This document shows, piece by piece, positions 1,000-19,265 of a stretch of 60,441 nucleotides of DNA. The stretch lies in IMG/VR virus record IMGVR_UViG_3300028835_000118, positions 1-60,441 of that record; one strand, given 5' to 3'. Position 1 is the stretch's first letter. Each line of letters begins with the position of its first letter. The stretch comes from a virus. The position numbers and the translations under genes are program-made. Below the pieces are notes generated by a model. The model ran no database searches, was not told the DNA's origin, and was given only the letters and a program-made list of their open reading frames with translations.

Positions 1000-1023
1000 A
1001 AATGTATTTAATTAAATTCTATA

Positions 1024-1031
1024 CAAATGTA
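1024..1031 (-). promoter_or_regulatory. Bacteroidota-type -7 box upstream of groEL
   Basis: Minus strand reads TACATTTG, fitting TAnnTTTG, 24 nt before the groEL ATG. No clear -33 TTTG lies upstream, so it may be weak or chance. Confidence 0.45.
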
Positions 1032-1036
1032 TAAAA

Positions 1037-1297
1037 TTATTCTTTAACCTCTCGCTCATTCATTACGGAATTAAAATAGTCTTTATAAAAATTATTAATA
1101 AAGTAAATCTCAATTACCTTTCCTTTATGTCTAATACTATTAATGTAATTAAAGGCTTCGTCTTTGGTATAAAAGACTAAACGCTTTTTATGGTTTTGCA
1201 ACCATTTGTTTTTCTCACATAATATTAGTGGTTTAGTTGGGTGGTGGATTTCATATTCATAATAGTCATCCTCGTAGGAAGTTAGTGGTGTATTCAT
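1037..1297 (-). CDS. Hypothetical protein, 86 aa
   Basis: No family recognised. Acidic N-terminal stretch (EDDYYEYE near residues 9-16), aromatic-rich middle, charged C-terminus; no signal peptide or membrane segment. It is the first gene of the minus-strand chaperone operon, 37 nt before groEL, behind a TATCTTTG box at 1321-1328. Its position suggests co-expression with GroEL; function unknown. Confidence 0.7.
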   Translation of the reverse strand: MNTPLTSYEDDYYEYEIHHPTKPLILCEKNKWLQNHKKRLVFYTKDEAFNYINSIRHKGKVIEIYFINNFYKDYFNSVMNEREVKE

Positions 1298-1320
1298 AAT
1301 GTAGTGATTTTTAATTTAGA

Positions 1321-1349
1321 CAAAGATACGAAAAAAATTCGACATAAAC
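1321..1349 (-). promoter_or_regulatory. Promoter of the 86-aa/groEL operon
   Basis: Minus strand has TATCTTTG at 1328-1321 with a TTTG about 19 nt upstream, the Bacteroidota -33/-7 layout. About 23 nt of leader precede the ATG at 1297. A short CT microsatellite (about 1376-1393) lies behind it. Confidence 0.7.
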
Positions 1350-1419
1350 AAATTAACCTGTTGAGTTCAACTCGCTATACTCTCTCTCTCTCTATTACTA
1401 CACAATAATTTTATTTCCA

Positions 1420-1529
1420 TATACGACCCCTTAAAAGTTAACAAGGTTAACAGAAGTCTTGATTATCAAGGAGTTAGGTTTTAAAAGTCAACAGAAAGTC
1501 AACAGAAAGTTAACAGGAAGTTGACATAT
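1420..1529. repeat. Iteron-bearing element, copy A (origin-like)
   Basis: Four consecutive 11-bp units start at 1486, 1497, 1508 and 1519: agtcaacagaa, agtcaacagaa, agttaacagga, agttgacat. Upstream are TATACGA (1420-1426), two GTTAACA words 9 bp apart (1437, 1446) and GATTATCAAG (1461). The same layout recurs at 12479-12566 before the primase gene. Known iterons act as replication origins or operators; here either role is inference. The phage makes two DnaA-domain-IV-like proteins that could bind. Confidence 0.75.
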
Positions 1530-1533
1530 ATAT

Positions 1534-1564
1534 AAAAAAAGAAGGGGATGTGAGAGTCCCCTTC
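1534..1564 (-). terminator. Intrinsic terminator of the 68-aa gene
   Basis: GAAGGGGA (1541-1548) pairs with TCCCCTTC (1557-1564) around an 8-nt loop. On the minus strand seven T follow (1540-1534). It sits about 60 nt after the stop of the minus gene at 1624-1830. Confidence 0.85.
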
Positions 1565-1623
1565 AATTATTAGGATAAGAAAAACACTACTAAAACTTAT
1601 CCCTTACACACACTAAACTTGTG

Positions 1624-1830
1624 TTATCTCTTAAATAGATTGATATTAGCATTTGCTAGTTCATTCCCTTCAGCAATCATTTGCACTTTCTTATATCTTT
1701 TAGCTGAAGCTCTCATGTCTGCTAATTCACTAATACCCATTCGTGGAGATGGAGCCATATTAATAAGTCTACCATCCTTTACCTCGTATCCCTGCATCGA
1801 AGGAGGGATGTTAAAATTACTTCTTTTCAT
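1624..1830 (-). CDS. Hypothetical protein, 68 aa
   Basis: Small basic protein with no recognised domain; MAPSPRMGISELADMRA near residues 25-41 is followed by a lysine/arginine-rich helix-like segment. It is a single-gene unit with its own promoter box (1851-1858) and terminator (1534-1564), inside the control region between the divergent chaperone and early operons. That isolation suggests a regulatory role, but nothing in the sequence proves it. Confidence 0.7.
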   Translation of the reverse strand: MKRSNFNIPPSMQGYEVKDGRLINMAPSPRMGISELADMRASAKRYKKVQMIAEGNELANANINLFKR

Positions 1831-1850
1831 AATGCGATTATTTATATCTA

Positions 1851-1858
1851 CAAAGATA
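1851..1858 (-). promoter_or_regulatory. TATCTTTG promoter box for the 68-aa gene
   Basis: Minus strand TATCTTTG, 20 nt before the ATG at 1830; -33 element not clear. Confidence 0.65.
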
Positions 1859-1865
1859 GGAAAAA

Positions 1866-2263
1866 TTTATTTAGATACTTAGGGCATTTGGGTTATATAT
1901 GGGTGCACGCAAGGGGACGGCTTCAGGAAACACAAAATTTTTTCATAGGGGGGGTGATGTTTTCCCTGTTGCACTTCTGATTTTTTTAGCTTTTTTCTAT
2001 GGGGTAGCTCTACTCTGTTGAGTACCTCCTATTTGCTACTCTCCTACAGGTTACGCTGTTATATATATATACTCCTGTTAACCTTCCCTTGATACCTTCC
2101 CTTAATCGTCCCCTGATATGAACATAAAACTCAGGTAATACCTTCCCTTCGTTAGCCCCTGTCCGAAGTGATATATATATAAACAAACCTTAGTAATCGC
2201 ATTGTTAATAAGTCGTTGATAATGAAAATTTTAACCTGTAAACGAAAGAAAGTTATTAACAAA
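1866..2263. other. Non-coding control region with C-rich repeats
   Basis: No convincing gene. A 24-bp imperfect repeat beginning ATACCTTCCCTT and ending CCCCTG occurs at 2092-2115 and 2138-2161 (46-bp period), and its ACCTTCCCTT core also at 2081-2090. Runs of alternating AT occur at 2061-2070 and 2172-2180, and a run of seven G near 1948-1954. The cytosine-rich repeats stand out in an AT-rich genome and sit upstream of the early promoter, so they may be operators or part of an origin. Confidence 0.55.
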
Positions 2264-2295
2264 TTTGGAAAATTGAAATAGTTGAACTATATTTG
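2264..2295 (+). promoter_or_regulatory. Early promoter
   Basis: TTTG at 2264-2267, then 20 nt, then TATATTTG at 2288-2295: a good fit to the Bacteroidota -33/-7 consensus. The start would fall near 2300-2302, about 38 nt before the first early gene at 2339. Confidence 0.8.
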
Positions 2296-2338
2296 AACCG
2301 AAATTAAAAATTAATTAATAACAAAAAACACAAAAATT

Positions 2339-2518
2339 ATGAAAAATTTAGTAACAAATCAGGTAGAAATCAGTACAATCGAAGAACAAGCACAAGCTCA
2401 GTTTTTTGCAGAAGACAAGCTCGAAAGAGATTTTCATTCAGGGTTCATCTCTGAAGAAGAGTACAACGAAGGTTTACAGGGTATATTCAGAAACTTTCAA
2501 GATATCTACGGATTCTAA
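2339..2518 (+). CDS. Hypothetical protein, 59 aa; first early gene
   Basis: ATG at 2339 follows an AT-rich leader; the acidic product has glutamate-rich helical stretches and ends IYGF. No family recognised. It is the first gene after the early promoter, and a structured RNA including an apparent hammerhead ribozyme begins 7 nt after its stop. An overlapping frame at 2406-2603 reads through that RNA and is not credible. Confidence 0.7.
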   Translation: MKNLVTNQVEISTIEEQAQAQFFAEDKLERDFHSGFISEEEYNEGLQGIFRNFQDIYGF

Positions 2519-2525
2519 AAAAACA

Positions 2526-2594
2526 GGGGGCTATGCCCCCTCTGTCGAGAGCTGTGTGGCTCTCCTGATGATGACTCAAAAGAGTCGAAACAGA
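2526..2594 (+). ncRNA. Hammerhead ribozyme (type III layout) with an upstream hairpin
   Basis: A GGGGGC/GCCCCC hairpin with a TAT loop (2526-2540) is followed by the hammerhead order. Stem III 5' strand TCTG with U at 2541-2545, cleavage triplet GTC ending at C2546, stem I GAGAGC/GCTCTC (2547-2552/2559-2564), core CTGATGA (2565-2571), stem II GACTC/GAGTC with AAAA loop (2573-2586), core GAAA (2587-2590), stem III 3' strand CAGA (2591-2594). One extra U (2572) lies between the core and stem II, which is atypical. ACAG/CTGT pairing with the upstream hairpin could compete with stem III. Predicted cut is after C2546, between the 59-aa gene and ardC. Confidence 0.8.
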
Positions 2595-2624
2595 AATAAT
2601 TAACTTAAATAAAAACTTAAAATT

Positions 2625-3566
2625 ATGACAACACAGAGTAAAAATGCAGTTCTAAAGAAGGTGAAAGACACCTTGTTAGAAGGGCTTAAGAAGGATGGGC
2701 TACAATGGTTCAAACCTTGGAAATCAGGGGAGAATCACCCCATCAACAACAAATCAGGTAGAGCTTACAGGGGTTTTAATACTTTCATCCTAAACTATCA
2801 GATGGTAACAGAAGAGTATGATTACAACGAATGGGACACCTTCAAGAGCATATCTGCAAGGGGTGGAAAAGTTAAGAAGGGTCAAAGGGGAACGGATATT
2901 TTCTTTTGGTTAATCTCTTACTGCTCGAAGGAAAACTTCGGCACTTGGTACAGAACGAAAGCAGAGTGTATGCAGAAGGAAAATTGTACAGAAGATGAAG
3001 TTTTTACAAACTTCGACTTGAGATATTACAGAGTATGGAATATCGGACAATGTGAAGGGTTAAAGCCCCTGAGAAAATTAGGTGAGACGAAAGAAGTTAA
3101 GCCAATCGAAAGTTGCGAAAAAATCGTAGCGAAGTACAAGAAGATAGCTAAGAAGTTAACCTTCAAAGACGTTGAGCAGGACAGAGCTTACTACTCACCT
3201 TCGAAAGATATGATTGTAATGCCGTTAATGACTCAGTTTGATTCTGAAGATAAATATTATCATACTCTGTTCCACGAGATGATACATTCAACAGGTCACG
3301 ACTCGAGATTAAACAGAGAAGGAGTTGCTACAGCATATCAGTTAAATAAGACCAAACACGACTACGCATTTGAAGAGCTAATTGCAGAGAGTGGTGCGAT
3401 GGTGTTATCAGGTATGGCAGGAATCAACACAGATGACGAAAGCAAGCAATCTCAGGCGTATGTGAACGGATGGGTGAAGGCAGTAGAGAAAGCCGATGAG
3501 AAGGCAGTTGTTTCAGCTCTAACGCAGTCAGCGAAAGCTACTGACTACATCTTAGGGGTTAAGTAA
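2625..3566 (+). CDS. ardC: ArdC-like antirestriction protein with zincin domain
   Basis: 313 aa. N-terminal about 130 residues match the ArdC N-terminal ssDNA-binding domain (LQWFKPW, SGRAYRGFN, GGKVKKGQRG). The C-terminal half is a zincin metallopeptidase of polyvalent-protein type: HEMIH near residue 216 and EELIAESGA near 249 supply the two His and Glu ligands. ArdC proteins protect incoming DNA from restriction, fitting its place as the first sizeable early gene. It is flanked by the ribozyme upstream and a miniature tRNA-like element 11 nt after its stop. The family is confident; restriction targets are unknown. Confidence 0.9.
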   Translation: MTTQSKNAVLKKVKDTLLEGLKKDGLQWFKPWKSGENHPINNKSGRAYRGFNTFILNYQMVTEEYDYNEWDTFKSISARGGKVKKGQRGTDIFFWLISYCSKENFGTWYRTKAECMQKENCTEDEVFTNFDLRYYRVWNIGQCEGLKPLRKLGETKEVKPIESCEKIVAKYKKIAKKLTFKDVEQDRAYYSPSKDMIVMPLMTQFDSEDKYYHTLFHEMIHSTGHDSRLNREGVATAYQLNKTKHDYAFEELIAESGAMVLSGMAGINTDDESKQSQAYVNGWVKAVEKADEKAVVSALTQSAKATDYILGVK

Positions 3567-3577
3567 CCTCTAAGATA

Positions 3578-3619
3578 GCTGAGAATGGTTGCAAAGGGGT
3601 TCGATTCCCCTTCTCAGCT
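3578..3619 (+). ncRNA. Miniature tRNA-like element 1 (acceptor plus T arm)
   Basis: GCTGAGA (3578-3584) pairs perfectly with TCTCAGC (3612-3618). T arm AGGGG/CCCCT (3595-3599/3607-3611) carries the canonical loop TTCGATT. Only 10 nt (ATGGTT GCAA) replace the D and anticodon arms; the GG could still contact the T loop. CTAA follows at 3620. It cannot decode, but resembles the minimal substrate of RNase P and RNase Z. A further AGGGATT/AATCCCT hairpin lies at 3633-3657 before the next gene. Confidence 0.75.
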
Positions 3620-3679
3620 CTAAGTGGTCAACAGGGATTACCACAATCAAAATCCCTTTAATTAAATATATATATAACT

Positions 3680-3946
3680 ATGACAAACACACACATTTGG
3701 GAAGGTTGGACGGCTCAAGATTTTATTGACCATCTCGAAGTAACATTTCCCTATGCGACATTCCACACATACGAAGAGCTGAAGGAGTGGTGCATAGCTG
3801 AGCAACCTTACTACAAGAAGCATATACCTGAAGTATATGAACACTTTGTAAGGAAGGTAATTTTTGAGCCAATAGAAGTGCCATCGGATTGGCAAGCAGA
3901 TTTGGAGGCGCAAGAGAATTATTTATGGGGAGATAAAAAAATTTGA
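3680..3946 (+). CDS. Hypothetical protein, 88 aa
   Basis: Unrecognised acidic, tryptophan-rich protein (WEGW near residues 7-10; EELKEW near 33-38). No signal or membrane segment. The ATG follows the leader ATATATATAACT that recurs before several neighbouring genes. It is bracketed by two miniature tRNA-like elements, so it would be released as a single-gene message if both are processed. Confidence 0.75.
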   Translation: MTNTHIWEGWTAQDFIDHLEVTFPYATFHTYEELKEWCIAEQPYYKKHIPEVYEHFVRKVIFEPIEVPSDWQADLEAQENYLWGDKKI

Positions 3947-3963
3947 TTGCAACTTGGCTGTAA

Positions 3964-4005
3964 TTCAGGAATGGTTAAGTGGGGGTTCGATTCCCCCACC
4001 TGAAC
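3964..4005 (+). ncRNA. Miniature tRNA-like element 2
   Basis: TTCAGG (3964-3969) pairs with CCTGAA (3999-4004); the seventh acceptor position is an A-A mismatch. T arm GGGGG/CCCCC (3981-3985/3993-3997) with loop TTCGATT. The 10-nt linker ATGGTTAAGT shares ATGGTT with element 1. CTAA begins at 4005 and the next gene starts 28 nt on. Same 42-nt architecture as element 1 but different stems, so the structure is conserved rather than the sequence. Confidence 0.75.
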
Positions 4006-4032
4006 TAATTTTAATTTAATATATATATAACT

Positions 4033-4380
4033 ATGGGAAAATCTAAAGAGCAATTCTTACAGCTAAGAGAAAGCCGTAAGGCGTATCGAGAGATACAGGA
4101 AATCATTGCCTTTAACAAGGCAAATAAACAGCAAGGCATTACGCTTAGGTGCGTGCATTGTCGCAGTTGTGAAGTAACATATCATCAGAGTGTAGGGGAC
4201 GCATACTGCTCTGATTGTGGAGAGTGGCAAGCAGGCGAAGAGTTTGAGCAAACTGAATTACATATAGCCGAACAAATACAGGAAAATTTGCTAACGCTGT
4301 GTTCTGCATACGGACTGAATGACATAGAATTCCAAGACAAGATGTGCGATATCGTTGTTCAGGGGCTGAAAAAAAATTAA
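4033..4380 (+). CDS. Zinc-ribbon protein, 115 aa
   Basis: N-terminal basic helix, then CVHCRSC (residues about 40-46) and YCSDCG (about 58-63), a likely four-cysteine zinc ribbon, then an acidic helical C-terminus. Such ribbons bind nucleic acid or protein partners; the target is unknown. The ATG follows ATATATATAACT. Flanked by miniature element 2 upstream and a promoter plus tRNA-like element 3 downstream. Confidence 0.75.
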   Translation: MGKSKEQFLQLRESRKAYREIQEIIAFNKANKQQGITLRCVHCRSCEVTYHQSVGDAYCSDCGEWQAGEEFEQTELHIAEQIQENLLTLCSAYGLNDIEFQDKMCDIVVQGLKKN

Positions 4381-4409
4381 CCTGTTGGCGAAAAAAAAGT
4401 GTTAAAAAA

Positions 4410-4441
4410 TTTGCATATGTCGAAACTTTGTCGTATGTTTG
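4410..4441 (+). promoter_or_regulatory. Promoter just upstream of tRNA-like element 3
   Basis: TTTG at 4410-4413, 20 nt, TATGTTTG at 4434-4441: the same geometry as the early promoter. The predicted start (about 4446-4448) falls only a few nt before the tRNA-like element, so that RNA would be near the 5' end of its transcript. Confidence 0.7.
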
Positions 4442-4450
4442 TTCAAAATT

Positions 4451-4519
4451 CGTGGGGAGTCGGTCTAAATTGGGGACTTGAAAACCCTAAGCAAGAAGGT
4501 TCAATTCCTTCCCCCACAA
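4451..4519 (+). ncRNA. tRNA-like element 3, degenerate, no proper D arm
   Basis: GTGGGG (4452-4457) pairs with CCCCAC (4512-4517); flanking C4451 and A4518 would be a 1:72 mismatch. T arm GAAGG/CCTTC with loop TTCAATT (4495-4511). An anticodon-like arm is present at about 4471-4488 with loop CTTGAAA (anticodon would be TGA, Ser), but its stem has mismatches and no D arm forms. CTAA begins at 4520. Probably a structural element rather than a working tRNA. Confidence 0.6.
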
Positions 4520-4542
4520 CTAACTTAAAATCAAAAACCACT

Positions 4543-4674
4543 ATGAGAAATTTAATTAAATATCTTACGTTAGGGAATGTTATAACATTCGCAGTATTAA
4601 CTTTCATCCTTGTCACTTGGAGTGCAGTAGTGTTCCATATCATAGCGACAGGGGGTTCAACAATTTCATTTTAA
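4543..4674 (+). CDS. Small membrane protein, 43 aa
   Basis: One strongly hydrophobic helix (about residues 10-36) after a short basic N-terminus and before a polar tail. The ATG at 4543 is chosen because a longer frame from 4399 would read through the tRNA-like element. Probably inserts in the host inner membrane early in infection; phages often use such peptides for superinfection exclusion, but no function can be assigned. Confidence 0.65.
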   Translation: MRNLIKYLTLGNVITFAVLTFILVTWSAVVFHIIATGGSTISF

Positions 4675-4685
4675 TATATATAACT

Positions 4686-4931
4686 ATGAAAGGAAAAGGT
4701 TGGATAAACGACACCACTTACAGAGATTTCCCCTTGAATTTTATAGGGGACTCTGCAGGTGAAGAGCTTAGCTACTACGACAGGTTAGCTAACTATATAA
4801 AACACAATGACTTGCTTGACGAAGAACAAACACTTGAATTATTCGACAGGATTGAATCATTTATTGAGCAAGAGATTGAAGAAATTAAAGTGGAATCATC
4901 CTTAGATAATTGGATGATTCAACAAGGATAA
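4686..4931 (+). CDS. Hypothetical acidic protein, 81 aa
   Basis: ATG at 4686 chosen for the preceding ATATATAACT leader; a longer frame from 4617 overlaps the membrane peptide. The protein is highly acidic with a helical C-terminal half (IESFIEQEIEEI). No family recognised. Its stop is 9 nt before the tRNA-Met gene. Confidence 0.7.
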   Translation: MKGKGWINDTTYRDFPLNFIGDSAGEELSYYDRLANYIKHNDLLDEEQTLELFDRIESFIEQEIEEIKVESSLDNWMIQQG

Positions 4932-4940
4932 ATAATAATA

Positions 4941-5014
4941 GCGAGGTAGAGCAGTTGGTCAGCTCGTTGGGTTCATATTCCAAAGGTCGCAGGTTCGAAT
5001 CCTGCCCTCGCAAC
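4941..5014 (+). tRNA. tRNA-Met(CAU), initiator-type
   Basis: Complete cloverleaf: GCGAGG/CCTCGC acceptor, TA linker, D arm GAGC/GCTC, anticodon stem TTGGG/TCCAA with loop TTCATAT, T arm GCAGG/CCTGC with loop TTCGAAT. Positions 1 and 72 are A and A (unpaired), and the anticodon stem has G29-C41, G30-C40, G31-U39. The unpaired 1:72 and the G-rich stem are hallmarks of initiator tRNAs, and GAGCAG...GCTCGT...AGGTCG resembles bacterial tRNA-fMet. CCA is not encoded. A phage-borne initiator-type tRNA is unusual. Confidence 0.9.
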
Positions 5015-5015
5015 A

Positions 5016-5151
5016 ACCGAGTAGAGCAGTAGGTAGCTCGCTCTAACTTAACTGAAGACGGCAAGCAATGAGCTTAATTAACTCAAGCGAGTAGATGCAT
5101 ATACCAATCTTCAGGTTAGAGAAGTCGTGGGTTCGAGTCCCACCTCGGTAG
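5016..5151 (+). tRNA. tRNA-like gene with about 60-nt insertion in the anticodon arm
   Basis: ACCGAG (5017-5022) pairs with CTCGGT (5144-5149), flanked by A5016/A5150 as an unpaired 1:72. D arm GAGC/GCTC and the TA linker match the adjacent tRNA-Met. T arm GTGGG/CCCAC with loop TTCGAGT. The anticodon stem CTCTAAC/GTTAGAG is extended by CTGAAGA/TCTTCAG, leaving a long central loop (about 5060-5106). No anticodon can be assigned. The insert is far too small for a group I intron. CTAA begins at 5152. Confidence 0.7.
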
Positions 5152-5171
5152 CTAATTTTAATATAATAATT

Positions 5172-5414
5172 ATGGGAATAAAAAACCTGACATTTTGTAA
5201 CGATGAGAATGAACAAGTAGGTTTGTTTCTCTTGAATACCAAGGAAGGACAAACGATTTGGAATTTAAGCGAGCAACATTGCGAGTTAGAATTTCTTGTC
5301 AGAAAATATCACGGAAAAATTGGAATTCCTGATTGGGATTTTGCAGACAACTACGATGAAGGAATCGAGTGGGTTTGCTTTGAAGATTTGTTTAACACAC
5401 TAAATACTATATAA
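5172..5414 (+). CDS. Hypothetical protein, 80 aa
   Basis: ATG at 5172 follows an AT-rich leader 21 nt after the tRNA-like gene; a longer frame from 5127 would read through that RNA. Acidic protein with several tryptophans (TIWNL, PDWDFADNYDEGIEW). No recognised domain. Confidence 0.7.
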   Translation: MGIKNLTFCNDENEQVGLFLLNTKEGQTIWNLSEQHCELEFLVRKYHGKIGIPDWDFADNYDEGIEWVCFEDLFNTLNTI

Positions 5415-5416
5415 CT

Positions 5417-5761
5417 ATGGGAAAAACACACGAAATCAAGCATTATATATTTGATTACTTAGGCACAGCCGATGGATACGAAATCGGTTGGCTACACGAA
5501 GAAGGTCAGAAAAACATTGATGACCCTGATTCAGAATTATTCTATGATAAATATGGGATGATGGATGTAGCGAAAGAACTTATTTTAGAAGGTCACAATT
5601 TCACTAACTATTGGTTAGATGATGAAGACATAGAAGAATGGGAAGAAGAAAGAGACAGATGTGAAGAGTGCGAAGGGGAAGGAACGATTATCTGTTCTAC
5701 TTACGATGACCCATACAACGAAGAGCCGTGTCCTGAATGTTCAGACCCACACGACTTATAA
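5417..5761 (+). CDS. Zinc-finger-like acidic protein, 114 aa
   Basis: The C-terminus has CEECEGEGTIIC (about residues 86-97) and CPEC (about 107-110), resembling half of a DnaJ-type CxxCxGxG zinc finger. The N-terminal 80 residues are acidic with many aromatic residues. Possibly a partner-binding adaptor; no enzymatic motif. Preceded by ATATAACT and followed by a strong hairpin at 5775-5809. Confidence 0.7.
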   Translation: MGKTHEIKHYIFDYLGTADGYEIGWLHEEGQKNIDDPDSELFYDKYGMMDVAKELILEGHNFTNYWLDDEDIEEWEEERDRCEECEGEGTIICSTYDDPYNEEPCPECSDPHDL

Positions 5762-5774
5762 TATATATATAATT

Positions 5775-5809
5775 ACTCACACCCCCCTTCATTTATGAAG
5801 GGTGTGAGT
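5775..5809 (+). terminator. Strong GC-rich hairpin, possible terminator or processing stem
   Basis: ACTCACACCC (5775-5784) pairs with GGGTGTGAGT (5800-5809), with further CTTCAT/ATGAAG pairing inside. No long T run follows (ATTATATAAATA), so termination is uncertain; it could instead protect the 3' end of the upstream message. Confidence 0.6.
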
Positions 5810-5852
5810 ATTATATAAATACGAATCGATTAGGGACGAAGTGCCGATGTTG

Positions 5853-6028
5853 ATTCAACTAACTTTTACTTGTATGAATTGCGAACGACAAGAAGAGTTA
5901 GACCACAGAGCAGATGATACCTTGGAGGTCGGAGTAGTTTTAGGGAACACAACCCAAGTTTGCTACAACGTCAGTTAATCATCTCACGGATGTAAAACAG
6001 GGGTTCGAATCCCCGTCTGCTCTCTAAC
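5853..6028 (+). ncRNA. Large structured RNA ending in a tRNA-like acceptor/T arm (element 6)
   Basis: AGAGCAGA (5907-5914) pairs perfectly with TCTGCTCT (6016-6023). T arm GGGG/CCCC with loop TTCGAAT (6000-6014). The 85-nt interior forms possible hairpins ACCT/AGGT, GTAG/CTAC and GGG-AACACAA-CCC rather than normal D and anticodon arms. A preceding hairpin CTAAC/GTTAG with inner CTTGT/ACAAG spans 5853-5901, and GTTAG there can alternatively pair with CTAAC at 6024-6028. No coding frame fits. It fills the gap before the 406-aa gene. Confidence 0.6.
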
Positions 6029-6045
6029 TTTTAAACACTACAAAT

Positions 6046-7266
6046 ATGGAAAAAGCAACCATTAAAAATTATGACCATCTTTTAAAGATAGATTGGTTCA
6101 ATCAGGTCTCTACTATAGAGGTTAACCTACACGAGAAGGGGGATAACTCGAAGACCACAACCTATAACTTTCGTTTGAATGAAGAGCAATCTGTATGTGA
6201 TGTTCTTACTGAACAGAAACTTATCAAAGATACAGACGAGGTTCGTCAACAAATTAACAGCGAAATTAATAAGCATATCAATAGTATTATTCAGAAGCGT
6301 CTAAATAACTATACTACAGCAGTTGACGTTCACAATATGTTAGTGGACTTAGATGTGAAAGACAAGAGACAATGGTCTTGTGGCGAAGCATACGAAGGTA
6401 AAATAAAATGGGGTGACGAAGTAGATTCAAACTTTGCGAGCCATCCATCCGAGGAATCATTTGTGTGTCCTACGGAAAACCTATGTTACTTCAATCCAAA
6501 AGCATTTGTGATTCGAATGGCTTGTCCCTATGACTACGATTGGAAAGCTGATAGATATAAGCATATATATAACAAAGATAAGTGCGTGGTAAATGTTAAT
6601 AGCTTTGGCGTATGCGACCTTGAGTTGCGTTTGGAATTCAAAAGCAAGGACTACAAAACAGGAGAGAGGTTTAACATTCCTAACCCTGCGTTATTCTATA
6701 ACCTTAGACAAAAAGATAATACCATAAGTAAGGTTAGCTTTATCGATGTGGCACTCTCAGAAAATAAATATAAGCCAATGGGAAAAGGACTTACTAAAAC
6801 ATATAAGTTTCAATCTTATTATGTGGGTAACGACTCGAGAAGTTTATCGTTAAATACATTTATAGTATACTGCCGTGAGAAATCTGACACCAACAGAAAG
6901 TTCTTTCTTCAGGATGTAGTTGAATCGGTAAACAAAGAAGAGATGTTAAAAGAGTTGAAAGAAAAGTTTGGTGAGGAGAATGTATTCAAGACAACAGCTT
7001 ACCAAAGCGATGTGAACTTTAAGAAGATGGATAGTTGGGGCAGGTATGGGTCGAAGGTAGTTAAGGTAATCCTGAAAGATGAGAGCTACTTGTTATATGA
7101 TTATACTGAGATAAAAAGAAACAAGAAATTAGAGCTTAGAGGTTTGTGGGATTCAAGCTACACAAAAGAATCAGTTAGTGATGCGTTTGAAAGAGTTATG
7201 AATAAGAATATAGAAGACAAATCTCTTGTCTCTGATATGATAGAAACAACATTTAACAATGAATAA
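6046..7266 (+). CDS. Hypothetical protein, 406 aa
   Basis: Largest unknown early protein; soluble, charged, without signal or membrane segments. There are scattered cysteines (WSCGEAYEG near residue 112, VCPTENLCYF near 138) but no clear metal site. Probably nucleic-acid or host-protein directed given the early position; this is only context. The ATG lies 23 nt after the tRNA-like acceptor stem. Confidence 0.8.
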   Translation: MEKATIKNYDHLLKIDWFNQVSTIEVNLHEKGDNSKTTTYNFRLNEEQSVCDVLTEQKLIKDTDEVRQQINSEINKHINSIIQKRLNNYTTAVDVHNMLVDLDVKDKRQWSCGEAYEGKIKWGDEVDSNFASHPSEESFVCPTENLCYFNPKAFVIRMACPYDYDWKADRYKHIYNKDKCVVNVNSFGVCDLELRLEFKSKDYKTGERFNIPNPALFYNLRQKDNTISKVSFIDVALSENKYKPMGKGLTKTYKFQSYYVGNDSRSLSLNTFIVYCREKSDTNRKFFLQDVVESVNKEEMLKELKEKFGEENVFKTTAYQSDVNFKKMDSWGRYGSKVVKVILKDESYLLYDYTEIKRNKKLELRGLWDSSYTKESVSDAFERVMNKNIEDKSLVSDMIETTFNNE

Positions 7267-7423
7267 AATGCTTAAGATAAATAAACTAAGAACCAAAGTG
7301 ATTTGTGTGTTTGATGAGGATGAAGGGGGACGTATAGAAGTGTATCGTCCCTCGGATTCCAAATACCAAATCTATTTAGAAATATATAATAACAATAAAA
7401 ATAAAAACAAATACTATGGGTAG
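7259..7423 (+). CDS. Hypothetical protein, 54 aa
   Basis: Starts in the overlap with the previous stop (alternative ATG at 7268) and ends 8 nt into the next gene. A basic N-terminus is followed by DEDEGG and a lysine/asparagine-rich tail. No family recognised; translational coupling is likely. Confidence 0.6.
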   Translation: MNKMLKINKLRTKVICVFDEDEGGRIEVYRPSDSKYQIYLEIYNNNKNKNKYYG

Positions 7424-7802
7424 ATATTATTACGGAGACATCGAAGGTAAGTTTATGTTCGCTGTCCAACCAAGTGACGCAGGAGAAAGGTTCGGTGCGT
7501 ATGAGACACCACACGAACCATCATCAATTGACTATTCTGTATGCAGAAAAAGTTCATACGATGACCTGTGTAAAGAATTAAAAAAGATAGAAGATTCAGG
7601 TGCAGTAAAGAGGTGCTTGCATATGTATGACGAGCTAGAGAAGGAAGGTCAGTTAGGTTACAACGAGAAAGATTGTGAAAGGTTTGGCGTATCTAAAACC
7701 GACCTATCGGAGTATGCTGATTGGAGGATGGGTACACATATGAAAGATTACTTTGACGAGAATCCTGATGCAGAACATTTATATTTTAATGCAGAGCTAT
7801 GA
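7416..7802 (+). CDS. Hypothetical protein, 128 aa
   Basis: Acidic soluble protein beginning MGRYYYGDIEGKF, with a central charged helix and C-terminal DENPDAEHLYF. No known domain recognised. Overlaps both neighbours by a few nt. Confidence 0.7.
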   Translation: MGRYYYGDIEGKFMFAVQPSDAGERFGAYETPHEPSSIDYSVCRKSSYDDLCKELKKIEDSGAVKRCLHMYDELEKEGQLGYNEKDCERFGVSKTDLSEYADWRMGTHMKDYFDENPDAEHLYFNAEL

Positions 7803-7951
7803 TAAATAAGGAAGAACAAAAACACATTCTAGACAATTGGAAACGCAAGGCGTGTGCCGATGAATTAAGAGAGATAGTTATGTATGGTGAGGACGACAGA
7901 GATTTGGTTGTTCGAGATGCCATGATGATAATAGATAAATACTTTGAATAA
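7799..7951 (+). CDS. Hypothetical protein, 50 aa
   Basis: ATGA overlap with the preceding stop at 7800-7802. Helical, mixed charge, no recognised family. Spacing and frame support a real coupled gene. Confidence 0.6.
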   Translation: MINKEEQKHILDNWKRKACADELREIVMYGEDDRDLVVRDAMMIIDKYFE

Positions 7952-7952
7952 T

Positions 7953-8126
7953 ATGGAACTAGCAATAATAAGATATACCGAAGGCAATGGCAGGACGTAT
8001 ATAGTTGACATTACAAATGATGTTGACAAGTGGATAGTCGATAACAATTCTACTAGGGATGAAGACCAACAAGAAAAATTATCTGACTTTAATATAGAAT
8101 ATAAATCAATTAAACTTTATAAATAA
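7953..8126 (+). CDS. Hypothetical protein, 57 aa
   Basis: ATG at 7953 is preferred over a TTG at 7944 in the same frame. It starts 1 nt after the previous stop and its stop overlaps the next ATG (TAATG). Acidic; no recognised domain. Confidence 0.65.
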   Translation: MELAIIRYTEGNGRTYIVDITNDVDKWIVDNNSTRDEDQQEKLSDFNIEYKSIKLYK

Positions 8127-8416
8127 TGAAAGTAAAAATTCAAAACCGAAGTGTCTACCACAAATTTGCTGAGGTAGAAATAGAAGTAGACAAGGATGAC
8201 TTGGAACATTTCATTCTTGATAGAAAAGGAATGGACATCCTTGATTACCTACAATATAACTGCCACCTTTATGATGAGCAGATAGATAAAGCTATGAGTG
8301 AAGCAGAGTATGAATATGGAAGTGGAGTAGATGACTACAGGGGAATGGTAGATGAATTAGATACAAGCGAATGGAGATTCGAGTGTGAAGAATTAAATAC
8401 AGGAGGTCACCTATGA
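8126..8416 (+). CDS. Hypothetical protein, 96 aa
   Basis: Acidic: N-terminal basic strand-like segment (MKVKIQNRSVYHKF), then mostly acidic helices. No family recognised. Overlaps both neighbours by 1-4 nt. Confidence 0.7.
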   Translation: MKVKIQNRSVYHKFAEVEIEVDKDDLEHFILDRKGMDILDYLQYNCHLYDEQIDKAMSEAEYEYGSGVDDYRGMVDELDTSEWRFECEELNTGGHL

Positions 8417-8661
8417 AAAATCTACAATACACTAACAGCGATATAGCTGAAGAGCTTAGCGAGTGTGCATCCGATTTGTTTTTCGAGTTGATGTTAGAGC
8501 TTGAAGGAACAGAGCTATATGATAAATATATAATAGACCACGGAACACACACACAAAGCACAGCTTTAGGTCAGGAATTATTCTACCGAATAGAAGATAG
8601 ATTGTTCAAGCTAAAGCTAACAGATATAGAAGAGCATTCTATATTTGATGTTAAAAAATAA
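8413..8661 (+). CDS. Hypothetical protein, 82 aa
   Basis: ATGA overlap with the previous gene. Leucine/glutamate-rich, likely all-helical, without cysteine motifs or membrane segments apart from one cysteine near residue 15. Last gene before a hairpin at 8661-8700. Confidence 0.7.
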   Translation: MKNLQYTNSDIAEELSECASDLFFELMLELEGTELYDKYIIDHGTHTQSTALGQELFYRIEDRLFKLKLTDIEEHSIFDVKK

Positions 8662-8700
8662 TTACGAAATGATTAGGAATTGTCGATTTCTTTTCGTAAT
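8661..8700 (+). terminator. Inverted repeat after the 82-aa gene
   Basis: ATTACGAAA (8661-8669) pairs with TTTCGTAAT (8692-8700), extended inside by GAAAT/ATTTC. AT-rich with no T run, so it may be an RNA-stability stem more than a terminator. Confidence 0.45.
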
Positions 8701-8726
8701 ATTGTCGAACTTAAAATTAAAACACT

Positions 8727-9092
8727 ATGACAAAATTATTATCTTATGAAGGGGCGACCTTCAGAACACTAGAGAAAGACGAAATGTATTTCGATGGTGG
8801 CAGTTGGAAGGTAGGTTCATTAAACAATGTATGCTACCAAGAATTAATTGACCTCTTTGGACAACCCACTTGGAATAGAGAGAGTGGAGATTTCAAAGTG
8901 CAAATGGAATGGGCGATTGAAGTGAACGATGGTGACAAGGTTTATATCCTACGCATCTATGATTGGAAAACTTATGACAGAGATTACACGATGTCACAGC
9001 TTAAAACTTGGAGCATAGGAGGTAACGATGATGGGAATCCATATCTGCTAAAGTCGTTTGTTCATACACATCAATCAGTATTATCTAATTAA
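8727..9092 (+). CDS. Hypothetical protein, 121 aa
   Basis: Soluble protein rich in tryptophan and tyrosine (GGSWKVG, PTWNRESGDFKVQMEWAI, KTWSIGGNDDG). The N-terminal LFGQPTWNRESGDFKVQMEW segment resembles small conserved phage proteins of unknown role. No catalytic motif. Confidence 0.7.
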   Translation: MTKLLSYEGATFRTLEKDEMYFDGGSWKVGSLNNVCYQELIDLFGQPTWNRESGDFKVQMEWAIEVNDGDKVYILRIYDWKTYDRDYTMSQLKTWSIGGNDDGNPYLLKSFVHTHQSVLSN

Positions 9093-18703: not shown

Positions 18704-19113
18704 GATTTGAAAAGGATAAAGATTTAGCAAGAGAAAAGAGAGCTATTGAATATTTTGTTAAAAGATTTAAAGGCTCTTATAAAAAGCTAGGACCTAACGA
18801 TGTGGACTATAAGGTCTTTGATGAAGACAAAAATCTTATTGCTTATGCTGAAGTAAAGGGACGATACCGAAGCTTAGCTAACTGCTATCCCTTACCTATT
18901 GCGTGTCGCAAGGTTGTGAAGCTATGTGATAAACGCTTAAATCCTGTAATGATATGGGCTTGTGATGATGGTATAGTGTATGGACAACCTGCACAACTTG
19001 ATGGATATGTTAAGTGGGGTGGAAGAAAACCAAGAGAGGGAGCAGTTAATGACCAAGAGCTTATGATATATTATGATAAGCAAAAGAAACTCCGATACTT
19101 TAGGTACTACTAA
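18700..19113 (+). CDS. PD-(D/E)XK nuclease-like protein, 137 aa
   Basis: VDYKVFDEDKNLIAYAEVKGRY (about residues 33-54) has the D...ExK arrangement of the restriction-endonuclease fold, with a helix before it. Probably DNA-processing (resolvase or nicking); specificity unknown. It is the last gene of the plus-strand block and its stop overlaps the converging late gene by 4 nt. Confidence 0.6.
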   Translation: MRFEKDKDLAREKRAIEYFVKRFKGSYKKLGPNDVDYKVFDEDKNLIAYAEVKGRYRSLANCYPLPIACRKVVKLCDKRLNPVMIWACDDGIVYGQPAQLDGYVKWGGRKPREGAVNDQELMIYYDKQKKLRYFRYY

Positions 19114-19265
19114 CGACCATATCTTTTCCCCGGTCTTAATCCTCTAGGTTTCTTGGGAGATTTTTTAAACCCATCAGTAGCATAATACAATCGCACCTGT
19201 GCCTCAGTAAAGGTTCTTCCACTTGGACTTTGATATTTGTTGTCTCCTATTTTTTTAAATGGCAT
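19110..19265 (-). CDS. Small basic protein, 51 aa, end of the late block
   Basis: ATG at 19265; begins MPFKKIGDNKYQSPSGRTFT and ends in a basic PKKPRGLRPGKRYGR tail. Small proteins of this pattern are frequent next to virion genes of marine phages; role unknown. It begins 2 nt after the 2946-aa gene stop and converges on the early block. Confidence 0.65.
   Translation of the reverse strand: MPFKKIGDNKYQSPSGRTFTEAQVRLYYATDGFKKSPKKPRGLRPGKRYGR

Follow-up and report, generated by a model that had tools for sequence, protein, structure and literature searches.

Gene gaps in the early region of a phage genome hold hammerhead ribozymes and miniature tRNA-like elements that may act as interchangeable RNA-processing devices

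Why should nearly every gap between the early genes of a phage contain a structured RNA? The question is raised by positions 2339-6046 of the virus record IMGVR_UViG_3300028835_000118 of IMG/VR, which was analysed over its whole length of 60,441 bases (the window). According to our list of genes and gaps this region has eight gene junctions; the six that exceed 11 nt each contain a structured RNA, and the two without one measure 11 and 2 nt. An earlier interpretation made from the letters of the window (the sequence-only reading) had noted such RNAs in nearly every early gap, listing a self-cleaving ribozyme, two miniature transfer RNA (tRNA)-like elements, a degenerate, an initiator-like and an expanded tRNA and a larger structured RNA, and had taken them for a tRNA punctuation system. 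All six gaps longer than 11 nt are indeed occupied: a predicted type III hammerhead (E = 6.9e-12), both miniature elements (mini elements A and B), the expanded tRNA and the larger RNA, whose acceptor covaries, were found at the positions given in Table 1, and the other two tRNAs were found with the amendments described below. We regard it as somewhat better than an even bet that the gaps hold interchangeable RNA-processing devices which would split a polycistronic phage transcript into separate messages. Sequence stretches collected for comparison are denoted by L-numbers; L003 is the closest relative of the window and L072 is MW202828.1.

The strongest evidence that the mini element, too, is a cutting device comes from the two gaps beside the gene for an ArdC-type antirestriction protein, which were compared between the window and its relatives, with elements assigned by scans, models and inspection by eye. 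The gap 5' of the ArdC gene holds a hammerhead in the window, L003, L004, L005, L006 and L011 (type I) and a mini element in L010, whereas the gap 3' of the gene holds a mini element in the window, L003, L004 and L006 and a hammerhead in L005 and L007. Such an exchange of ribozyme and mini element within one gap implies that the two would share one job, and therefore that the mini element would cut as well.

The window hammerhead has the CUGANGA...GAAA core, stems I, II and III and the open stem III of type III ribozymes, and is predicted to cleave itself after the NUH triplet. It carries one additional U ahead of stem II, for which reason MAFFT misaligned it, whereas the copies in L003 and L005 are canonical. 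Model R2 was built without the window copy; in its hammerhead family 95% of the cells are paired, and covariation amounts to 0.898 as compared to 0.237 after shuffling. Rfam RF00008 at its gathering score does not list the window hammerhead, and copies in L085 reach 41-43 bits where 48.5 are needed; this reflects a detection threshold and not a defining trait, the stems and the core being complete. The stem-loop just 5' of the type III hammerhead also folds in L003-L006 and L085 and weakly in L087, and in the window a cut by the ribozyme would leave it at the 3' terminus of the upstream message. Four type III hammerheads occupy consecutive gaps in L085 (2120-4345), with a mini element further on; a near-identical stem-loop, GTGTCTT..AAGACAC, lies ahead of each of these four. 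A type I hammerhead in L005 (9620-9700) has the stop codon of the upstream gene inside stem I, and similar TTAACTGANGA arrangements occur in L047, L053 and L057. Among cultured phages, Flavobacterium phage elemo has a single type III hammerhead (L256, which is MT497017.1 16500-23500; record positions 19085-19137, minus strand) in a leader that separates two divergent groups of genes, and two other elemo records carry the same. Some matches of the structural scan that lie within genes, for example on the minus strand of L085, were judged to be false.

The mini element is built on a plan of a 6-7 bp acceptor, a linker of 9-12 nt, a T stem of 5-6 bp and a T-loop TTCGANY, with a total length of 41-47 nt. 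The GGT of the linker is near-invariant and usually part of AATGGTT, and acceptor and T stem form a stack of about 12 bp (11-13 bp in 147 of 156 copies). Altogether 161 distinct copies were collected. A scan of IMG/VR in which the pattern prescribed nothing but linker and T arm, leaving the acceptor free, gave 60 stretches; the acceptor pairs (helix score of at least 10) in 42 of the 43 distinct copies, as compared to 24% with flanks exchanged between copies, which rules out chance pairing. In an alignment of 32 sequences all 12 pairs show changes on both sides somewhere, and the covariation score of 0.670 is well above those of shuffled (0.159) and slid (at most 0.267) controls, so that the pairing cannot be due to chance. 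The single-sequence fold of mini element B is insignificant (z -1.8) and its support is comparative.

A looser scan of IMG/VR gave at least 120 stretches with mini elements, whereas the strict pattern has six matches among bacterial and archaeal genomes totalling 257 Gb and model R1 matches in 5 of 296 Bacteroidota genomes (20 candidates scored per genome). Given this rarity in cellular genomes, the mini element is essentially viral. Scans against Rfam 15 gave no family at gathering score, only sub-threshold matches to selenocysteine tRNA (tRNA-Sec) and transfer-messenger RNA (tmRNA), and judged by these comparisons the mini element constitutes a new family of RNAs. The mini elements are not classed as canonical tRNAs because they lack the anticodon arm and the D stem; a canonical cloverleaf is formed by the tRNA-Met at 4940-5014 alone among the window elements, and this is also the sole ordinary tRNA called by Rfam at gathering thresholds and ARAGORN. 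BLAST of L079, L085, L087 and L017 returned no named cultured carrier. The sequence-only reading had proposed a search of related phages with covariance tools, and such models do find the gap elements again in many phages, in up to eight successive gaps; mini elements and putative hammerheads are present in the gaps of many unrelated uncultured phages.

The placement of the copies ties them to gene ends. The contigs are fragments with mechanical gene calls and part of the copies are kin; among the 141 copies with a nearby upstream open reading frame (ORF), the stop codon ends at -20 to +7 relative to the first paired base in 101 (72%), as compared to 9.8% for random positions on the same strand (binomial p about 5e-69, treating related copies as independent). 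In mini element A of the window it ends 11 nt before the element. The next ATG mostly follows 10-60 nt 3' of the element. Runs on a single strand with one mini element per gap comprise eight copies in L079 and five in L080; L081 has five in successive gaps (eight at a looser cut-off), and L149 has six across 2.6 kb, where the sole junction without one is, by eye, an ATGA gene overlap. Copies within one genome mostly differ in sequence with the fold kept through double changes, and some copies of one phage have common acceptors (L149, L152). At 927-1777 of L152, six near-identical mini elements lie about 150 bases apart with the tail CCTGA instead of N-C-notC-A; this set possibly represents another type of array, arranged in tandem.

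Which cut would be made at a mini element can be judged from its two flanks. On the 3' side, C74 is present in 43 of 51 copies and A76 in 45, with CCA in one; in a larger set with the tail rigidly anchored, C74 is found in 102 of 156 and CCA in two. Bacteroidota chromosomal tRNAs, taken from two genomes as a yardstick for an inferred host, have C74 in 34 of 34 and CCA in 5 of 34; the mini elements copy the CCA-less pre-tRNA trailer of this host. The tRNA elbow serves for recognition by ribonucleases (RNases) P and Z and by CCA-adding enzymes (PMC4810234), and the linker GGT and T-loop of the mini element would form such an elbow. Excision in the mitochondrial manner, with RNase P cutting 5' and RNase Z cutting 3', would account for the same anatomy and position: the 12-bp stack with its elbow is what RNase P reads, this enzyme is known to cut RNAs other than tRNA (PMC11143913), and the stop codon is clear of the acceptor in 104 of 141 copies. 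In the remaining 37 (about 26%), however, it lies wholly or partly within the acceptor stem; a standard RNase P cut would break it there, whereas it would survive an RNase Z-type cut after N73. Moreover, U at -1 is present in 4 of 36 copies versus 14 of 34 host tRNAs (Fisher p 0.006), and the CCA preferred by E. coli RNase P (PMC11143913) is not encoded. The two-sided excision put forward in the sequence-only reading is thus disfavoured, and we consider it unlikely; the missing preference for U(-1) and the stop codons in acceptors fit better with a single 3' cut. After such a cut the stop codon of the upstream gene would be preserved in all copies. The same would apply to the hammerheads, where type I ribozymes with the stop in stem I and type III ribozymes with a 5' stem-loop would both keep the upstream gene whole and its 3' end structured.

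Taken as processing devices, the gap elements would act as follows. Hammerheads would cut the transcript by self-cleavage, while the mini elements and the larger tRNA-like elements would present a minimal tRNA elbow, consisting of the 12-bp acceptor/T stack and a GGU D-loop that lacks a stem and docks on the T-loop, and would offer a host-type trailer N73-C74-notC-A to the tRNA 3'-end endonuclease of the host (RNase Z type), which would cut after N73. The stop codon would stay in the upstream message, whose 3' end would now be compact and structured, and the downstream message would begin about 15-60 nt ahead of its ATG. A cut by RNase P would be optional, in cases where the stop codon is upstream of the acceptor, and the degenerate tRNA behind the second promoter would serve as a 5' leader in a like manner. 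The earlier proposal that one transcript becomes individual messages agrees with the structures and their covariation, the gap position, the sense strand, the recurrence, the device exchange and the trailer match, from which we infer the cleavage itself, the enzyme and the effect on the messages. For the wider claim, that mini elements are a new and widespread class of viral RNA, namely stripped-down tRNAs of 41-47 nt serving solely for cutting by host tRNA enzymes at the end of each gene and interchangeable with hammerheads, the chances appear evenly balanced.

Several observations weigh against processing. The mini element is absent in 15 named phages, mostly Bacteroidota phages and some of them related. 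MW202828, with a 74% identical terminase and different early genes, has neither mini element nor hammerhead; seven of its gaps (at 4755, 5077, 5872, 6162, 7929, 9205 and 10150) hold an identical palindrome GTGTCGTTAACGACAC in place of mini elements. Many contigs contain just one or two mini elements, which means that most operons there would be unpunctuated. The conservation of AATGGTT is partly selected, since copies were gathered with a pattern and a model; collection by pattern also favours G-rich T stems. Furthermore, much of the same anatomy would result from a stabilising role without cleavage, in which the elements, as compact structures at a 3' or 5' end, would stop exonucleases, prevent read-through by ribosomes or cause attenuation of transcription. 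The tight placement at the stop codon, the stem-loops that also adjoin hammerheads and the palindromes in the MW202828 gaps would suit such a role. A plain hairpin would suffice for it, however, and would leave unexplained the conserved elbow GGU and a C74 that lies outside the fold; there is no U-tract 3' of the elements, and the exchange with a self-cleaving ribozyme suggests a cut, so that uncleaved structures seem rather improbable. Mimicry in trans, by which freed mini elements would occupy SmpB, elongation or defence factors or become aminoacylated, draws on the stemless D-loop, which resembles the tRNA-like domain of tmRNA (host tmRNA GAAATTGGTTTCGAC), and on weak sub-threshold matches to the Rfam tmRNA model. 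It appears very improbable: the G3.U70 alanine pair is found in none of 61 copies, the acceptor sequence is unconstrained, an anticodon is absent, ordinary tRNA-sized host loci outscore the mini elements on the tmRNA model, and a role in trans would not call for a copy in each gap. On account of the missing G3.U70 pair and the higher-scoring host loci, tmRNA mimicry was set aside. Finally, the elements could be features of the DNA, such as sites of insertion or recombination that derive from tRNAs and serve as marks of gene cassettes, in keeping with the joint gain or loss of element and downstream gene between the window and L003 and with the acceptors shared in L149 and L152. We give this hardly any credence, as the usual divergence of copies within a genome, with the fold kept by double changes, fits selection on RNA and not sequence-specific recombination.

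The remaining gap elements are larger than the mini elements. The degenerate tRNA has no proper D arm, scores under the Rfam cut-offs and is insignificant as a single-sequence fold (z -1.2); its support is comparative, with an altered anticodon-like stem in the homologues of L003 and L004. It begins about 11 nt past the promoter-like site at 4410-4441, and these homologues follow similar sites. This position suggests that it heads the second transcript (transcription unit 2), and it is probably a promoter-proximal 5' leader as well as the gap element that it had been called. The A1.A72 mismatch is the one initiator-like feature of the tRNA-Met, the GC run of the anticodon stem being absent; as a full tRNA it may serve translation too. 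A pattern search for homologues of the expanded tRNA gave one distant match only. L003 lacks the tRNA-Met, the expanded tRNA and the following gene (5172..5414) as one block, and this joint loss suggests that element and gene travel as modules. For the large tRNA-like RNA, five sequences show seven pairs with double changes, chiefly in the acceptor; its interior is conserved in sequence and the fold there is uncertain. Pattern matches for this element in L095, L097, L099 and L100 appear to be chance matches within other sequence.

Table 1. Positions of genes, promoter-like sites and structured RNAs in the early region of the window
Feature	Position	Strand	Evidence and remarks
Promoter-like site TTTG-N20-TATATTTG, Bacteroidota type	2264..2295	+	Pattern scan; counterpart in L003 by eye; opens transcription unit 1
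Small gene, 59 aa	2339..2518	+	ORF list; kept in L003
Stem-loop just 5' of hammerhead cut site	2525..2541	+	Similar fold at most type III hammerhead loci
Type III hammerhead ribozyme	2541..2594	+	Model R2, E = 6.9e-12; cleavage predicted between 2546 and 2547
ArdC-type antirestriction protein, 313 aa	2625..3566	+	PF08401, PF18818; PHROG 7245
Mini element A: 7-bp acceptor, ATGGTTGCAA linker, 5-bp T arm, tail T-CTAA	3578..3623 (body 3578-3618)	+	Model R1, 57.7 bits; fold z -2.8
Small gene, 88 aa	3680..3946	+	ORF list; Pfam search without match
Mini element B: 6+6 bp stack, linker AATGGTTAAG, tail CTAA	3964..4009 (body 3964-4004)	+	Model R1, 53.3 bits
Small gene, 115 aa, zinc-ribbon-like CxxC pattern	4033..4380	+	ORF list; C-terminal end kept in L003
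Second promoter-like site TTTG-N20-TATGTTTG	4410..4441	+	Pattern scan; like sites in L003-L006 by eye
Degenerate tRNA: acceptor GTGGGG/CCCCAC, anticodon-like arm, T arm, tail A-CTAA	~4452..4518	+	Homologues in L003 and L004; fold
Small membrane-type gene, 43 aa	4543..4674	+	ORF list; counterpart in L003
Small gene, 81 aa	4686..4931	+	ORF list; counterpart in L003
tRNA-Met (CAT): full cloverleaf, A1.A72 mismatch, tail A-CAA	4940..5014	+	ARAGORN; RF00005, 62.9 bits
Expanded tRNA-like RNA: greatly lengthened anticodon arm, tail G-CTAA	5016..5150	+	Fold z -2.7
Small gene, 80 aa	5172..5414	+	ORF list; missing from L003 along with tRNA-Met and expanded tRNA
Small gene, 114 aa	5417..5761	+	ORF list
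Large tRNA-like RNA: 8-bp acceptor, conserved TACCTTGGNGGTCG D-like region, T arm, tail CTAA	5907..6028 (body 5907-6024)	+	Homologues in L003, L004, L006 and L098
Gene, 406 aa, 3' of large tRNA-like RNA	6046..7266	+	ORF list; Pfam search without match

Between the gene at 5417-5761 and the large tRNA-like RNA there is also a strong inverted repeat, ACTCACACCC..GGGTGTGAGT (5773-5812), which is retained in L003 and absent from L004; it is possibly a terminator or a further 3'-end hairpin. Both ends of the window share an exact direct repeat of 136 bases, which makes it probable that the record represents a complete genome, about 60.3 kb in size. A GroEL gene of the phage (label taken from MW202828) spans the contig ends (1-999 and 59709-60441). 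Terminase and portal of the window are closest to those of MW202828.1 (74-78% identity) and more distant from those of Flavobacterium phage elemo (45-47%) and, likewise, of Cellulophaga and Tenacibaculum phages. These relatives point to a Bacteroidota bacterium as the inferred host, in agreement with the promoter-like sites at 2264 and 4410, which have the Bacteroidota form TTTG-N20-TAnnTTTG. The gap of MW202828.1 at 4755-4851 has, in addition to its palindrome, an acceptor-like pair followed by ACTAA.

The finding connects a ribozyme and a tRNA mimic as occupants of the same gaps. If the proposed processing is true, bacterial viruses have evolved a tRNA punctuation of their own, independent of mitochondria, and phages outsource the maturation of their messages to the tRNA machinery, each message being left with a tRNA-like 3' end. 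The minimal element would then reveal which parts of a tRNA are needed in vivo by processing enzymes, provide a short portable intercistronic processing part, offer a likely reason for the many tRNA-like scraps in phage genomes and open a direct way to ask whether phage operons get cut into single messages.

Among known RNAs, the tRNA-like domain of tmRNA is similar to the mini element in having an acceptor, a T arm and a stemless D-loop with GG and no anticodon arm, and several host tmRNAs share its N-C-A-A tail. Unlike tmRNA, the mini element is too short (41-47 nt) to include a messenger-like region and has no G3.U70 pair. RNAs with tRNA-like features that are cut by a tRNA enzyme are known from the non-tRNA substrates of RNase P, which comprise some bacterial mRNAs, pre-tmRNA and the phage RNAs M3 and C4 (PMC11143913); these are single cases, whereas here a dedicated element is repeated at gene ends. 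Theta ribozymes, which are related to that of hepatitis delta virus (HDV), occur in gut phages and were linked to the maturation of tRNAs in Bacteroidota hosts, in which CCA is mostly not encoded (PMC10879173). They adjoin functional tRNAs, whereas the elements described here seem to serve message ends; cmscan of window positions 1000-9000 gave no HDV-like match with E up to 10, although Rfam may lack a theta model.

The likeness to mitochondrial tRNA punctuation drawn in the sequence-only reading holds for the presence of tRNA-shaped structures between the genes of one transcript and is doubtful for the two-sided cut by RNase P and RNase Z. Mitochondria use functional tRNAs, whereas most elements found here have no anticodon, the acceptor may include the stop codon, and the evidence favours one cut on the 3' side. 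The same reading had regarded punctuation as undescribed for phage operons. Our literature search among open-licence papers gave no report of a dedicated mini-tRNA gap element or of phage tRNA punctuation, so the tRNA part appears new; punctuation by hammerheads was already proposed in 2011. According to the excerpted text of Perreault et al. (2011, PMC3088659), hammerheads flank single genes in prophages, one set surrounding the antirestriction gene ardA, and were proposed to cut long phage RNAs into messages of operon or gene length. As in the early regions described here, self-cleaving ribozymes follow each other between phage genes in that account; unlike there, as far as the excerpt goes, the hammerheads found here share gaps, and exchange them, with tRNA-like elements.

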